From: a virus
DNA length: 29,428 nucleotides
Strand: one strand, 5' to 3'
IMG/VR virus record: IMGVR_UViG_3300013103_000041
Coordinates: 1-29,428 of that record
This document shows, in pieces, positions 19,844 through 27,106 of the stretch. The notes under the pieces were generated by a model. The model worked only from the letters and a program-made list of their open reading frames with translations, made no database searches and had not been told where the DNA came from. A program made the position numbers and the translations under genes. Every line of letters starts with the position of its first letter. Position 1 is the first letter of the stretch.

Positions 19844-21010
19844 CTACCCGTCAGATACTACGAGCCGGACAATCGCGTCTGGATGAACCGCCTTGGCCTC
19901 GTATGCGAGACTGAGTTTCATTCTTATTTGGTCTGCATTAGGCCAGTCAAACACTTTTACCGTTGCTTGTCGTCCCCAAACTATTGCTCCGCATTTCTTT
20001 GCTTTTACCAGTCCGCAAATGTGACCGTTAACATCGGTGCTAACATTTGCTCCTTGCACTCTTATTACGCCCGCACTTGAAAATGCTGGAACTTTTGAGG
20101 TGCATACCACTTTAACTCCCAAGTACTGTCCTATCTCTCCGTGTAGCACCACTTCGTCCGAACCGTATTCCGATGCGTTGACAAACTGAGAATCGTCTTG
20201 CAACGCTTGTCTTTGCTCAGGCGCTATGAATAAGACAAACGGTTCGTCCGGTGTTGGTTCCCAAGCATTTTTGGTTACCGCTGATTTGGTGAATGTATTG
20301 CTGCTCCAATAGTAACCGTGATTGGAAGTCAGCAATCTAATTGCTTTCGCAATCATGCTCGTTGTCAGAGTGTCGTCGGCATCCAGAGAATCGTCTGCAT
20401 TCGTCGCGTCTCCGCCAAATATCGTTTGCGCGCCGTTCACGGTATTGCTCATTGGCGTTGGTTCGGATGCGTCTTCTCCGCTCGCATCCGTTTTAAATGT
20501 TCCGAGCAATGCGTCTCTGATCGCGCTATCGACGGAGTTTTCGTATTTGTAAGCCAGCTCCTCTCTACAGTACGTCACTTGATCCAGCGCATTGGTCATT
20601 ATTGCTTTGTTGGAAATTGCGACGCCGTAGTTGTAGTATGTTGGCGTGAACTGAACCGAATCGGCGGTATTTATCTGTGTCCATGAAATCTCGTTGCCCG
20701 CCGAATATTCCTCTGAACTTGTTTCCCAACTTGAATCCGCTAAGTATTTCTTTCTTTTAGCCATGAAGTAATCCTTTGCCCCCTCTGCTAACTGAACTTG
20801 GGTAACCACGTCCAAGAATCTTAATCTCTCTCTCGCAGCATCAACGGCCTTTTTGGCATAAATCGCCGGAGTAAGACCGTAGATGTTGGTTCCCGCGCTA
20901 CCCTGAACGCTGGATACGGTAGTTACTGTGCTTGCCAGTTCGAATGTCTTGAAGCCAAGTTTATCCATTCGCGGTACCATCGACAATTTATATGTTATTC
21001 CATTTTCCAT
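19844..21010 (-). CDS. Major capsid protein (HK97 fold)
   Basis: A 388-residue protein directly after the protease/scaffold gene, with GGTGATTTAA upstream of ATG 21010. It has an N-terminal arm, a helical region with KKAVDAARERLRFLDVV (spine-helix type), a strand region SWTQINTADSVQFTPTYY (E-loop-like), and helices with EELAYKYENSVDSAIRDALL. A P-domain-like segment follows (FVLFIAPEQRQALQDDSQFV ... IGQYLGVKVVCTSKVPAF), then a C-terminal strand (AIVWGRQATVKVFDWPNADQ). The 'GxxLGxxVxxTxxVP' motif is typical of HK97-type capsid proteins. It would build the icosahedral head. Confidence 0.85.
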   Translation of the reverse strand: MENGITYKLSMVPRMDKLGFKTFELASTVTTVSSVQGSAGTNIYGLTPAIYAKKAVDAARERLRFLDVVTQVQLAEGAKDYFMAKRKKYLADSSWETSSEEYSAGNEISWTQINTADSVQFTPTYYNYGVAISNKAIMTNALDQVTYCREELAYKYENSVDSAIRDALLGTFKTDASGEDASEPTPMSNTVNGAQTIFGGDATNADDSLDADDTLTTSMIAKAIRLLTSNHGYYWSSNTFTKSAVTKNAWEPTPDEPFVLFIAPEQRQALQDDSQFVNASEYGSDEVVLHGEIGQYLGVKVVCTSKVPAFSSAGVIRVQGANVSTDVNGHICGLVKAKKCGAIVWGRQATVKVFDWPNADQIRMKLSLAYEAKAVHPDAIVRLVVSDG

Positions 21011-22267: not shown

Positions 22268-25200
22268 TCAAATGAGTTTGAGAACCTTTTGATACCGATA
22301 AACGGTGTTTTTTGACAATCCGGTCGCCAGACTGATGCTTCTTCTGGACTCGTTTTTTGCCGTGAGCTCGATTATCTGCTTCAATATCTTGCCCGTGACT
22401 TTTACCGGCTGACCGGCTTTTTTGATTTTGTCAAAAAGCATTATCCAAGTTTGAGGCCCGATATGAGCGATGTGGAACGAATATTCGCCCGTCATATCGA
22501 TCAGCTTTTTGGGCGGTTTAATCAATGTTGGAGCTCCCTCTTTTTTCGCCATTTGCAAGGGCTTCAGGTTAACATCGCCCTTGTCCGATCTGAACTCTAT
22601 TCTTATTTTATGATCCGTTACTTCGTGGATGGTGTATACGCCTCTGGAAATTATGATGAACACTCCGGGATAATGCGTTTTAGCCGTGCCGATTCTATGG
22701 GTAACCCCGTCAAAGAACAGCCAATCCACCGGCTCGGTCAGCTTAATCGTTCCTCTGACATGCGAACTGTCGGCATAGTTCGATTCTTCTATCGTTGCGG
22801 GAGTGAACAACGTTATTCCTTCGAGACATCCTTTAAGATCGCCCTTCTTGAACAATGCCAGCGCATCGTCGTATGTCAAAACTTTGTGGGTTATCTTGTC
22901 GGGAACAAACAATCTGACATCCCGGTGCGTCTTGCGCCCTATGCTGTGCAAGTGTATGACATAGGGCATCCACAGTTTGTTGTTCATGATTTTTTTGAAA
23001 TTCCTCTGCATCCTCTTCGGAAAGTCCCTGATTATTTTGACTTCTTTGGCTTCCTCCGGCTCTTTTTTCAATTCTTCGTGTTTCACCGCAACGCCAATCG
23101 AAGTGACTATGTCCTCGAGTTCGTCTATTGTCGAAGTTTCCTTTTTTTCCGTGATATGATTGACTCTCGGCTTATGTATCGAATACCATCTGCCTTTGTC
23201 CGATTCGTGCCTCCAGACTTCCTCGACCAAGATGCTCAATATGTCTCCGACTTCGTATTTTTCGGACGTATTGAATGTTTTGCCCAAAACCAGCACCTTT
23301 TTTCCTTTGAATTCGGTTATCTTGTCGGGATTGATGCCAGAATCTTTTTCTCTTAAATAAACTCCCACGAGATAGTTGTAAAGATTCTTTTCCTTTGGAA
23401 TGCGTTCCAGTATTACCGCGTCTATATCGACAAGATTGCGATACTTCAACCACGACCTATGCTCTCCGAAATGGTATTTCGCCGACAGATCTTTGATCAC
23501 GGCCCCTTCCGAGTAAGGCAAATCCTTTGCCCACTTTATCGCTTTTTCAACTTCATCGACCCCTTTCGCAAACTTTCTCTGGATGAGCAGGGTCCTGGGA
23601 CCGAAATTCAATTTATTCAAATATTTGATGCGCTCACGCAAGCTCAGGTTCGTGATATCGTTATCGAAATAAACGATGTCCCATATGACTATTTTGATGT
23701 TTTTGTCGTCCACTTTTTTTCCGCTTTCGATTGCTCCTATGAATTTCATCAATGCGTTTCTTCCAAGCTGCTTGCCGTCATCGAAAGGAACTATTTCCCC
23801 GTCCACTATGAAATTGCCATCGCTCATCTTCGATATCGCATCGCACAAAGTCGGGAACGCAAATGTTAGCTCTTTTTTTTGCTCCGAAAATATCTTCACT
23901 TCGCTTCCCTTCTTGTGGCAGCACACATGAAATCCGTTTATCTTTTTTTCTACGGAATATTCGACATCGTTCCTTATCTTTGCCATTATGTCATCGATTT
24001 TATAGTAAGCCGAACCGAAGGGTTTTTGAGGAAGATAAGGCTCGAACAGCCGAACCGAGTCTCCGAGAATTATTTCGTTCATTTCCACTATTTTGGTCGG
24101 TTTGATGCGCTCCAGTTTCAAATCGTAAAGCGGAATGAACGAGTCGTGGCTGCCTTCCGAATCTCCCCATATCATGTGAATTTTCGGTATCAATTCGACA
24201 TAGCCGTTTTCTTCGAGCATTTTCAGCAGCCTGACCTCGATCGCCCTTCTTATATACGAGTTCTTCTCCGCTCGCAATCTGATCTGCAAGTCCACGTCGT
24301 TCGGTATGTGCCCTTTCGGCCTTTTCACGGTAGAACCGACCAGGGAAATGCAATCCTTGACTATCTTGAAATCCTTGAATGCGTCCAGAAAATCGAGATT
24401 CGTCAAGTCAACTTTCTTGTGTATCATCTCTTTTTTCCCGGTTATTCGCTTATACAAATCCAGCGACCATTTCTTGTAGGTTTCCGGGTGAAACTCGATG
24501 CCCCTTTTCTTAAGCTCCTCGTATATCATTTTGGCAAGATTGACAAGGGTTTCTTCCGAATACGGCGTTTTCTCGCCCCTTTTGAGTTTGCTGTAATGAG
24601 CGCACACGATCCTGTAATCGTCTTTCAAAACATCGGTATCCAGCTTTTGAGGGTCATAAGTCTCCGGGTTCTGTATCAAATTCGCTTCGATGTTCTGAAA
24701 CTCAAATTTTTCCAATACGCTTTCGATTTTTTCGGCAAGCGAATCCCACCAGCTTTCCCAGCCTTTTTCGCCGTACCATACCTTGCCCGCAACGACAACT
24801 CTTGGTCTGTTCTCGGCGCCGATGTCGCATTTGGAATACAATCCGTCCTGCTTGTCCAGTTCCTTGCTGATGTCTTCGGCCTTGTCGTCGTCGGCCGGGT
24901 TCGCCATCCTGAATACTATGAAAGCGACCCTCTCGGGCGACTTTCCCTCGTCGCTTGCCCTTATTTCTATCTCCTTGATTCCGTTCAGTCGCTCAAGCCA
25001 TTCGTCCTTTATATGAATATCGATGTCGTTGAAACCGTTCCACGATTTTTTCGGACCGTTTGTGCGACCGCTTAACCAGCCTCCCGGCGGCATTTTGTTG
25101 TATACCGCGTAGTATGCAAATGTCGGCGAATTCATTTTCGGCGCATAGTCCGAATTCAAAAATTCGATATCCTTTACGAAGGTTTGCGTGCCCTTTTTGA

Positions 25201-27106
25201 ACTTCCATCTTCGAGGGGTTGCAAACTTCGTGATCCATTCGAATGAGAATTCGTAAAAATACTTTTTGTCTTTCCATCCCCACTTTTCGATATCGTTGTC
25301 GCTGATCAAATGAAGATTTGCCCTCTCGTCGAACTGCTTCTTCGTAATTCTGTTTGGCGCGTGAAGCCTGATGACGCCGTAAACGAATTCCTTGTCCACA
25401 ACGTAAAGAGCCTTATCTACCATCTCGGGATACGGTCTCGTTTTTATTATCAGCGATTTCTTTCCGCCCCACAGCCATTTGGCATGAGGCGACGGTAAAT
25501 AAATTCCCTCTCTCTGCTCGAAAAGCTGCAACTCCACGCGACTTTGACTCAGATCGATTGAATCGGGATCGTAATTGCTGAATACCAGTTCGTATTCGGG
25601 CTTGTCGTCCTTGGCGAATGTTCTTTTATGAAGCATCTTTTTCATGCGAAAATCTTTGAACAAATCCCTTATCCAGTCGGCATTGTTCAATGTTAAAAGA
25701 AACTTTCCCTTTATCGATTTCAAAATGTCCCGAAGCTCCTCCAAGTTTTCTTTCGTAAATTTCAAACCGTCGCTTTCGAACTCCCACTCGTCGGGATAAG
25801 GGGGATCGACAAAGAAAAACGTTTGCGGAGAATCGAATTCCTTTATGATCGGCTTATAATCGCGATTGTATATCTTCACGTTCTTTAATCTCTCCCTCAA
25901 TGCATCCCATCTACTCAAAATTCCGAGCAGCTTTTTTTTGTTGAACCAGCCGTATGTTTCCCTGTCTATTCCATAAGAATATCTCGTGAGATACAAAAAT
26001 TTGGCAAATCTTTCGATATCGTTCTTCGGCTTCAATTCTTTGATCTTGAAGAAAGTCGGTTTGTCGTTTTTCCATTCGTATTGCTTGAGCTTTTGAGCTT
26101 CCTCCGCGCTCGTGTTTTGTATGAACCTGTACGCGAACGCGATTTCGGAATCGAGATCGTTTAAAACTTCGACTTCGCTCGGGCTCTTTCTCCAGAACAC
26201 GGCTGCCCCGCCCGCAAACGGTTCGCAATAAATTTTGTGCTGAGGCATCATCCTGATTAACTTTTCCGCGACCCTGCTCTTGCCGCCCGGACTGCCGAAC
26301 GCTTGCTGCATAAGTTCGTGATCCTGATACAATACCATGCTGTCGTAAGACAAAATGATTTCGCTGCTCGATTTCCCCTTTATCTGGTTCCAGTATCGCT
26401 GAATCTGTTTTTCGGCCTTGTAATAATCGGGATAGGAGCGTCCCGCTTGTATCAGCACGAATTTGTCTGGATTGTATATTTGAGCGTATGCCAACGAATC
26501 GGCAACATTCAAATGCCCCCTTAGCATCTTGCCCGTGGCAACTATCTCGCCTCCCTTTTCTTCCAGATTGTAAATGGCGGCGTCGAGAATCATCGTGTCC
26601 GCGTTTTTAAGATACTGCTCGTTTTCGGCCGGAACCGATTCCATATCCTCGGCGTAAACCAAGCCGTCGATTCTGTATCCGTAGCAGGGAAACTTCTTGC
26701 CGGTCGGAAAAGGTTCCGCGTGAATCACCCTGAACGGAATTATCTTGAATCCCATTATTTTGTTCGTTTGGTGAGGAGTTATCGGTTTAAAAACGATGTT
26801 TTTGAACTTCTTTTGCAGCCTTTCGTTTGCCAGAACCTTAGGCGGAGCGTAAACGTTTACGGGCTCGCTCAGCCATTTATCCATATCGGAAAGACCGCCG
26901 ATGCAGTCCTCGTGGGCGTGCGTGAGCAGGCAAAAGTCTATCTTCTCGATGCCGTTCTTTTCCACCTGCTCCTTGAAGTGCTTGGTAACATCGATTATGA
27001 ACGACTTCCCTGCTTTTTCTATGTAAACAGAACTATTCGTGCGCCTGTTTCTTCCTCTTCCTTCAACTAATTGAGTCGGACCCGAGCCCAGCACAACTAT
27101 TTTCAT
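22268..27106 (-). CDS. Giant multi-enzyme fusion: MBL fold, Dam methylase, ASCH-like, NTase-like, DNA ligase, LigD phosphoesterase, HTH
   Basis: 1612 residues in one frame. Residues 1-255: metallo-beta-lactamase fold (HAHEDC, H63/H65/D67 with C68 in place of the usual His; H129, D175, H198). 268-510: D12-class adenine methylase (GSPGGK 271-276, CEPFAGGAAVFW 294-305, DPPY 434-437). About 535-650: ASCH/PUA-like. 650-890: unassigned. 897-1010: nucleotidyltransferase-like (GS 924-925, DVD 937-939, D995). 1025-1320: ATP-dependent ligase (EKKING with K1055, DGE 1102-1104, EGAVIK 1200-1205, WLKYR 1219-1223, OB-fold part). 1360-1565: LigD-type 3'-phosphoesterase (HLHSIGRKTHRDVRL). 1568-1612: helix-turn-helix (SRRSISLATGLSKNTVYRYQ). 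It overlaps the portal stop (ATGA). It may modify or repair viral DNA ends; processing into parts is possible. Confidence 0.8.
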   Translation of the reverse strand: MKIVVLGSGPTQLVEGRGRNRRTNSSVYIEKAGKSFIIDVTKHFKEQVEKNGIEKIDFCLLTHAHEDCIGGLSDMDKWLSEPVNVYAPPKVLANERLQKKFKNIVFKPITPHQTNKIMGFKIIPFRVIHAEPFPTGKKFPCYGYRIDGLVYAEDMESVPAENEQYLKNADTMILDAAIYNLEEKGGEIVATGKMLRGHLNVADSLAYAQIYNPDKFVLIQAGRSYPDYYKAEKQIQRYWNQIKGKSSSEIILSYDSMVLYQDHELMQQAFGSPGGKSRVAEKLIRMMPQHKIYCEPFAGGAAVFWRKSPSEVEVLNDLDSEIAFAYRFIQNTSAEEAQKLKQYEWKNDKPTFFKIKELKPKNDIERFAKFLYLTRYSYGIDRETYGWFNKKKLLGILSRWDALRERLKNVKIYNRDYKPIIKEFDSPQTFFFVDPPYPDEWEFESDGLKFTKENLEELRDILKSIKGKFLLTLNNADWIRDLFKDFRMKKMLHKRTFAKDDKPEYELVFSNYDPDSIDLSQSRVELQLFEQREGIYLPSPHAKWLWGGKKSLIIKTRPYPEMVDKALYVVDKEFVYGVIRLHAPNRITKKQFDERANLHLISDNDIEKWGWKDKKYFYEFSFEWITKFATPRRWKFKKGTQTFVKDIEFLNSDYAPKMNSPTFAYYAVYNKMPPGGWLSGRTNGPKKSWNGFNDIDIHIKDEWLERLNGIKEIEIRASDEGKSPERVAFIVFRMANPADDDKAEDISKELDKQDGLYSKCDIGAENRPRVVVAGKVWYGEKGWESWWDSLAEKIESVLEKFEFQNIEANLIQNPETYDPQKLDTDVLKDDYRIVCAHYSKLKRGEKTPYSEETLVNLAKMIYEELKKRGIEFHPETYKKWSLDLYKRITGKKEMIHKKVDLTNLDFLDAFKDFKIVKDCISLVGSTVKRPKGHIPNDVDLQIRLRAEKNSYIRRAIEVRLLKMLEENGYVELIPKIHMIWGDSEGSHDSFIPLYDLKLERIKPTKIVEMNEIILGDSVRLFEPYLPQKPFGSAYYKIDDIMAKIRNDVEYSVEKKINGFHVCCHKKGSEVKIFSEQKKELTFAFPTLCDAISKMSDGNFIVDGEIVPFDDGKQLGRNALMKFIGAIESGKKVDDKNIKIVIWDIVYFDNDITNLSLRERIKYLNKLNFGPRTLLIQRKFAKGVDEVEKAIKWAKDLPYSEGAVIKDLSAKYHFGEHRSWLKYRNLVDIDAVILERIPKEKNLYNYLVGVYLREKDSGINPDKITEFKGKKVLVLGKTFNTSEKYEVGDILSILVEEVWRHESDKGRWYSIHKPRVNHITEKKETSTIDELEDIVTSIGVAVKHEELKKEPEEAKEVKIIRDFPKRMQRNFKKIMNNKLWMPYVIHLHSIGRKTHRDVRLFVPDKITHKVLTYDDALALFKKGDLKGCLEGITLFTPATIEESNYADSSHVRGTIKLTEPVDWLFFDGVTHRIGTAKTHYPGVFIIISRGVYTIHEVTDHKIRIEFRSDKGDVNLKPLQMAKKEGAPTLIKPPKKLIDMTGEYSFHIAHIGPQTWIMLFDKIKKAGQPVKVTGKILKQIIELTAKNESRRSISLATGLSKNTVYRYQKVLKLI

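Follow-up and report, generated by a model that had tools for sequence, protein, structure and literature searches.

The window, that is, the whole stretch of 29,428 nucleotides of viral DNA analyzed here, carries on its minus strand a single open reading frame of 1612 residues (P0001) that starts with an ATG at position 27106 and ends with a stop codon at 22268. An earlier note on this DNA, based on its letters, had described an uninterrupted frame of this length at the same coordinates, with an ATGA overlap with the portal and a place between portal and protease; all of these statements hold, the overlap being that of the fusion's start with the portal stop, and the strand is minus. The order of genes on that strand is the C-terminal part of the large terminase subunit (TerL), a 76-aa ORF, the portal protein, the fusion, a probable prohead protease with scaffold, and the major capsid protein (Table 1). 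A tape-measure-like protein, an Ig-domain tail protein and connector proteins lie beyond the capsid gene, thus indicating a tailed virus. The prohead protease of the window was assigned by motif and not by Pfam: D64-H65 and G-I-S-P are invariant in an alignment of nine relatives, and the protease homologue in contig L035 also matches the XkdF-type S78_2 profile.

The possibility that the ORF is an assembly chimera of separate genes, which the earlier note had named as a finding that would overturn its reading, is ruled out by an independent 63-kb contig in which the same 1612-aa ORF recurs with 93% amino-acid identity. The two copies differ by zero indels, and dN/dS is 0.069 overall and ≤0.12 in every domain; the fusion ORF is under purifying selection.

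Table 1. Coordinates of the fusion gene, its domains and the adjacent head genes, in order of transcription.
Feature	Position	Strand	Evidence
Terminase large subunit (TerL), C-terminal part, cut by contig end	28622..29419	-	Pfam Terminase_6C 1.3e-11
Portal protein, 425 aa	27103..28380	-	Pfam Portal_Mu 5.7e-12; ATGA overlap with fusion
Fusion ORF (P0001), whole, 1612 aa	22268..27106	-	Same-length homologue 93% identical in L002; dN/dS 0.069
MBL fold, residues 1-262	26321..27106	-	Pfam Lactamase_B_2 4.6e-17
D12-class adenine-N6 DNA methyltransferase, residues 265-527	25526..26314	-	Pfam MethyltransfD12 6.9e-20 (273-496); phrog_56 6.9e-49
ASCH, residues 528-655	25142..25525	-	AF2 model; VIA Z 11.3 to 2dp9, 10.8 to 5guq; Foldseek 8.8e-5
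Insert, residues 656-808	24683..25141	-	Absent from L005; low pLDDT
Family-conserved helical linker, residues 809-905	24392..24682	-	Family alignment; predicted helices
Putative Pol-beta-type NTase, residues 906-1015, GS...DVD...D	24062..24391	-	Residues conserved; weak profile/fold match
ATP-dependent DNA ligase adenylation domain, residues 1016-1235	23402..24061	-	Pfam DNA_ligase_A_M 3.9e-23 (1036-1222); PDB 3gde 6.9e-15
Ligase OB fold, residues 1236-1340	23087..23401	-	VIA Z 9.2 to Pyrococcus ligase 2cfm, model residues 1-114
LigD-type phosphoesterase (PE), residues 1360-1560	22427..23029	-	Profile + Foldseek + VIA Z 13.1
C-terminal HTH, residues 1561-1612	22271..22426	-	VIA Z 7.0 to serine recombinase DNA-binding domain 2r0q, 46 residues
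Probable prohead protease with acidic/coiled scaffold tail, 401 aa	21016..22221	-	Family alignment, motif
Major capsid protein (N4-gp56/HK97-like)	19844..21010	-	NCBIfam capsid_maj_N4 2.7e-14, below cut-off; phrog_1357

Domains of the fusion protein

From the N-terminus the chain consists of a metallo-beta-lactamase (MBL) fold, a D12 adenine methylase, an ASCH domain, a putative Pol-beta-like nucleotidyltransferase (NTase), an ATP-dependent DNA ligase with its OB fold, a LigD-type 3'-phosphoesterase (PE) and a helix-turn-helix (HTH). Every domain except the NTase was confirmed by profile or fold searches, among them the ligase, phosphoesterase and methylase folds on which the earlier note had staked its interpretation; the MBL-fold, ASCH and HTH calls, which like these had been made by eye, were also right. 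For the NTase the verdict is divided: the GS/DxD/D residues are conserved, with the G, the DxD and the D invariant in the family alignment, but the matches are weak both to Pfam (NTP_transf_2, 0.003, in 6 of 12 members) and to known folds (1ylq, Z 5.5), and it is the weakest of the domain calls.

The MBL domain finds its best PDB profile matches in the PhnP-like structures 3py5, 3md7 and 6b9v (~1e-26), followed by RNase Z and then by the anti-Pycsar enzyme Apyc1 (1.5e-7). It keeps H63, H65, D67, H129, D154 and H198, while the last His of the HxHxDH motif is replaced by Cys (C68); in most relatives this position is Ala, Val or Cys and the other metal ligands are kept. The D12 domain carries EPFAGG and DPPY motifs and is matched by the MTase_II model of PADLOC. 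The region from ASCH to NTase was modeled with AlphaFold2 (residues 528-1015; pLDDT 68), and Pfam ASCH is matched in two of seven relatives (7e-6). A fold search with the low-pLDDT model of the insert (656-808) returned nothing significant, its best rows (Z about 6) being at the level of unrelated matches. The ligase shows the motif I lysine (K1055), DGE (DGE1104), EGxxxK (here EGAVIK) and OB fold by which this class of enzyme is recognized, with motif I reading KxNG rather than KxDG. In the PE the conserved residues are H1387, H1394, D1396 and R1398, a spacing of Hx6HxDxR that corrects the HxxxxxxxHxDxR given before. The only PDB matches to a nine-sequence PE profile are two archaeal LigD phosphoesterases, and the four best Foldseek matches to the model of the C-terminal part (residues 1225-1612, covering OB, PE and HTH; pLDDT 76.7) are all LigD PE, with TMt up to 0.81. 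The C-terminal HTH has a weak match to Pfam HTH_7 as well.

A family of head-module repair proteins

Scans of IMG/VR and of GTDB genomes with alignments of the NTase-ligase-PE core yielded, once duplicates were removed, 71 non-redundant contigs that contain this set or parts of it. The search for the same domain order in other viral contigs, proposed as a check in the earlier note, thus finds the repair core recurring in head modules. In 31 of the 71 contigs a core domain and a prohead protease share one ORF, and 33 further ones have a head gene no more than 6 kb from the core, a count that is a lower bound because the portal, protease and capsid profiles were home-made from the same family; the remaining seven, short contigs or ones with head genes outside the profiles used, are counted in neither class.

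Two arrangements recur. In group A, to which the window belongs, the order is TerL, portal, [MBL-(MTase)-ASCH-(MTase)-NTase-ligase-PE], protease and capsid, with parts split over two genes in L008, L025 and L212, the MTase missing in L005 and L010 and placed after ASCH in L009, and MBL-PE-PE fused to the protease in L210. In group B the NTase-ligase-PE core is N-terminal to an XkdF/S78_2 protease in one ORF; Pfam matches place ligase and Peptidase_S78_2 (XkdF) in one polypeptide in L028, L034, L160, L162, L163 and L189, and a D12 domain is added in L162 and an MBL domain in L160. The constant part of the family is NTase-ligase-PE, and modification, glycosylase and hydrolase modules vary around it. 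Since the MTase is absent from L005 and follows ASCH in L009, the MBL and MTase parts are regarded as exchangeable modules. This narrows the earlier claim that the combination is new to described viruses: the core belongs to a large family that is also found in the ANMV-1 virus.

Several members show further rearrangements. A uracil-DNA glycosylase (Pfam UDG 1.6e-7) shares one polypeptide with NTase, ligase, PE and prohead protease in L189:3593-7054, and L193:7725-14138 is a 2137-aa ORF in which methyltransferase profiles match three times alongside NTase, ligase, PE and S78_2 protease. A single 789-aa ORF in L005:9704-12073 unites the prohead protease, a scaffold-like region and the major capsid protein, for which the window has separate genes. 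L025:7548-10298 has tandem ligase domains, the first without the active-site Lys and the second intact. The N-terminal part of L014:5705-9199 and L015:6033-9527 resembles by eye a TGT/DpdA-type 7-deazaguanine enzyme, fused to MBL-NTase-ligase, and both fusions adjoin a QueT-like transporter gene.

Nearly all members, some with identities as low as about 25%, retain the catalytic residues of MBL, NTase, ligase and PE. L011:6155-8473 and L012:5203-7962 have lost them in MBL, NTase and ligase alike and have no detectable PE, yet both dead genes still sit between portal and protease; part of the role may therefore be structural. These two fusions, and that of L026:4475-8473, carry a duplicate of the N-terminal segment that begins the family's own capsid protein (ATTT..GISDVQG; z against shuffles 17 in L011, 6.7 in L012 and 9.5 in L026), which in L012 and L026 precedes a stretch that looks LAGLIDADG-like by eye. 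Homing may have introduced the copy, or the segment may serve for protease cleavage or for binding to the capsid; as a protease site in the window's fusion this segment was rejected, being absent from the window.

A maximum-likelihood tree was built from 150 ligase domains, 65 of them from head modules, 71 cellular and 14 from other viral ligases returned by the same query. The 65 head-module ligases fall on one side of a single branch with support 100/97; since co-occurrence with NTase or head genes was what defined the "head" label, this separation is not fully independent of the search. With the same profiles, the flanks of 32 other viral ligase loci (many of them near-copies) yielded no head, NTase or PE domain. 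The MuF domain is found in none of 24 group A records, the window included, as against 21 of 26 protease-fused group B records; this contrast is strong, whereas absence from one fragmentary contig alone would be weak, and the group A fusion proteins occupy the MuF slot beside the portal. No Ku, LigD polymerase or MuF (Phage_Mu_F) domain was found in the window, itself a genome fragment. Ku is encoded in 2 of 51 related records, the contigs of L023, whose ligase is close to that of the window in the ligase tree, and of L180. The two Ku-family proteins are at L225:389-1171 (G007) and L226:180-986 (G020).

Relatives occur in a genome binned as Thermoplasmata (L068), in two more genomes of the same phylum (L218, L219) and in two from the phylum of a Nitrososphaeria genome (L221, L222). 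Together with ANMV-1 these Thermoplasmatota and Nitrososphaeria-phylum relatives point to archaea as the likely hosts of the window and of group A. MCM, PCNA and DnaB gave almost no host clues; two contigs of group B do encode DnaB, which would fit bacterial hosts for that group.

Comparison with known systems

A first parallel is LigD of bacterial nonhomologous end joining (with its archaeal version of separate Pol, Lig and PE in Methanocella), which the fusion resembles in uniting ligase, PE and a putative nucleotidyl-adding domain in one chain, and two related viruses also encode Ku. Unlike LigD, the fusion has a putative Pol-beta-type NTase and not an archaeo-eukaryotic primase polymerase, adds MBL, D12, ASCH and HTH domains, and lies in a viral head module with no Ku in the window. 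No archaeo-eukaryotic primase-type polymerase was matched by Pfam or NCBIfam outside the ligase part. Because its putative NTase is of another type than the LigD polymerase, the fusion is not itself a LigD; by analogy it is presumed to work like one.

Polyvalent proteins, a described class in which many domains are joined in one packaged viral polypeptide (Iyer et al. 2017, PMC5512222), offer a second parallel, with many enzymatic domains, a portal-terminase context, adenine methylase modules and suspected packaging in common. The fusion has one trait of that class, several enzymatic domains in one chain encoded by an element with portal-terminase packaging, but the hub domains MPTase, ArdC, ART, SNF2 and MuF were not found in it. 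MuF likewise carries fused enzymatic domains, and the term "DNA ligase" is absent from the text of that paper (PMC5512222). Head proteins of the MuF/SPP1 gp7 type share with the fusion the slot beside the portal, and differ in that neither the window nor group A has a MuF domain.

In the ANMV-1 virus of ANME archaea (KP703175), the gene right after the portal (AJP62006) encodes an NTase-ligase-PE core that belongs to the same clade; the product of the next gene is rich in Cys and its end is weakly MuF-like (5e-4). Unlike that of the window, this core has no MBL, methylase, ASCH or HTH; it is annotated only as "ATP-dependent DNA ligase", and the ligase is not mentioned in the paper on the virus. 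Phage-database searches with the ligase part reached only ANMV-1 and one unannotated record, and with the middle part (residues about 510-1010) gave no match. Peptidase_S78_2 (XkdF) proteases carry the core at their N-terminus in group B, in one ORF, whereas the window's protease is a separate gene of a different subfamily. In the literature searched, no fusion of a ligase with a prohead protease and no paper on a ligase in a viral head module was found; a study of hydrothermal-mat viruses lists one gene annotated "DNA ligase" among those under diversifying selection and gives no context for it (PMC10159854).

Methylase-prohead protease fusions of Lactococcus and Rhizobium phages were considered as a precedent and rejected, as the genes in question are short and of the XkdF type, the word methyltransferase standing in their product name. 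The "DNA methyltransferase" genes between portal and capsid in KX456206 (Lactococcus phage 28201) and MN988558 (Rhizobium phage RHph_Y1_11) match the XkdF part of L034, and the name is probably a propagated misannotation. Particles of ASFV and CroV carry the repair enzymes Pol X and ligase, as separate proteins. The Ku of mycobacteriophages Omega and Corndog serves genome circularization together with host LigD, and thus relies on an enzyme of the host and not on a head-borne ligase.

Proposed role and alternatives

Of the readings considered, a virion-packaged, LigD-like protein for the incoming genome, acting on viral DNA at packaging or entry, is given a probability of roughly 0.5 on the sequence evidence. 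The earlier note's idea of a one-polypeptide system that protects, heals and seals DNA ends and is tied to the head module thus stands as the best-supported interpretation, owing to the 31 protease fusions, the head-specific ligase clade and the Ku genes in two relatives' contigs; the novelty is narrower than had been claimed. With about 70 contigs carrying the core in the same place, often fused to the protease, viruses that pack DNA-repair enzymes are suggested. The covalent link to the prohead protease would put the repair set inside the prohead in group B, and homology and position indicate that the group A set is probably there too.

In the proposed sequence of events, the fusion would be made late, with portal, protease and capsid protein, would enter the prohead where other viruses have MuF, and would travel with the genome, either whole or as domains after cleavage by the prohead protease. 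The PE would then trim 3'-blocked ends, the NTase would add or tailor an end or cofactor, and the ligase would seal nicks or join ends; the D12 methylase would mark DNA against host restriction, and MBL and ASCH would probably hydrolyze or bind nucleic-acid products or host signals. Packaging, injection, enzymatic activity, order of action and protease cleavage are all presumed here. The best explanation of the composite chain appears to be that entry-protection modules were added onto a head-module LigD-like end-repair protein. Against this reading, a 1612-aa protein would need to be cleaved or unfolded to exit through the tail (a tape-measure-like gene is present), closeness to head genes could reflect late expression only, Ku is found in few records, and L011 and L012 are catalytically dead yet keep the gene.

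Counter-defence at entry, by a packaged and injected polyvalent protein with no part in healing or circularizing the genome, overlaps in part with the packaged-repair reading. It would account for modules that, like those of polyvalent proteins, are not always present or in the same position, for the D12 methylase with its PADLOC MTase_II match, and for the MBL profile match to Apyc1; the constant part of the family is, however, NTase-ligase-PE, anti-defence modules are often absent, Apyc1 ranks below PhnP-like and RNase Z structures, and the metal ligand H68 is missing in the window. Counter-defence as the sole role, in which the methylase would block restriction, ligase and PE would mend nuclease cuts and the MBL domain would destroy a cyclic-nucleotide alarm in the manner of Apyc1, is judged unlikely. 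A late intracellular role, in which the enzyme would stay unpackaged and heal nicks and gaps of concatemers before terminase packaging, the head operon providing only timing, seems quite unlikely: the direct prohead-protease fusions predict a location inside the prohead and ordinary viral replication ligases sit elsewhere in genomes, although strand, operon position and ATGA coupling to the portal agree with such a role and ligase and PE suit nicked replicative DNA.

It is distinctly improbable that the protein mainly serves head assembly in MuF's place, with enzyme domains that are inherited and partly dispensable, given that catalytic residues are conserved in nearly all members other than the dead ones even at low identity and that dN/dS is low in every domain; what such a structural role would explain is that MuF is absent exactly where the fusion is a separate gene (0/24 versus 21/26), that L011 and L012 retain the gene and that L013 retains only ASCH-NTase. 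Repair of RNAs cut by host defence ribonucleases could draw on a weak Pfam RNA_ligase match (0.013), the KxNG form of motif I and the relation of the MBL domain to RNase Z. The DNA ligase profile is far stronger (3.9e-23), an OB fold of the DNA-ligase kind is present (Z 9.2), the PE is of the LigD DNA 3'-end type and the UDG and Ku partners act on DNA, and RNA repair by ligase, NTase and PE is therefore a very remote prospect.

A packaged core would, as far as is known, be the first enzyme for DNA end repair carried in the head of a tailed virus. Packaging would also explain how viruses of sediments and hydrothermal sites make damaged or linear genomes fit to replicate, and which enzymes enter the cell with the DNA would become directly testable. 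The prohead-protease fusion offers a clean handle for virion proteomics and genetics, and the ligase-PE unit suggests a compact end-repair enzyme for biotechnology. A wider proposal, held tentatively and at somewhat less than even odds, is that tailed viruses of archaea, and probably also of bacteria, couple repair of DNA breaks to capsid maturation: a LigD-like enzyme would be made with or beside the prohead protease, packed, and used on arrival to heal and join genome ends and nicks, with Ku or alone, while methylase, UDG and MBL modules would be swapped according to host.
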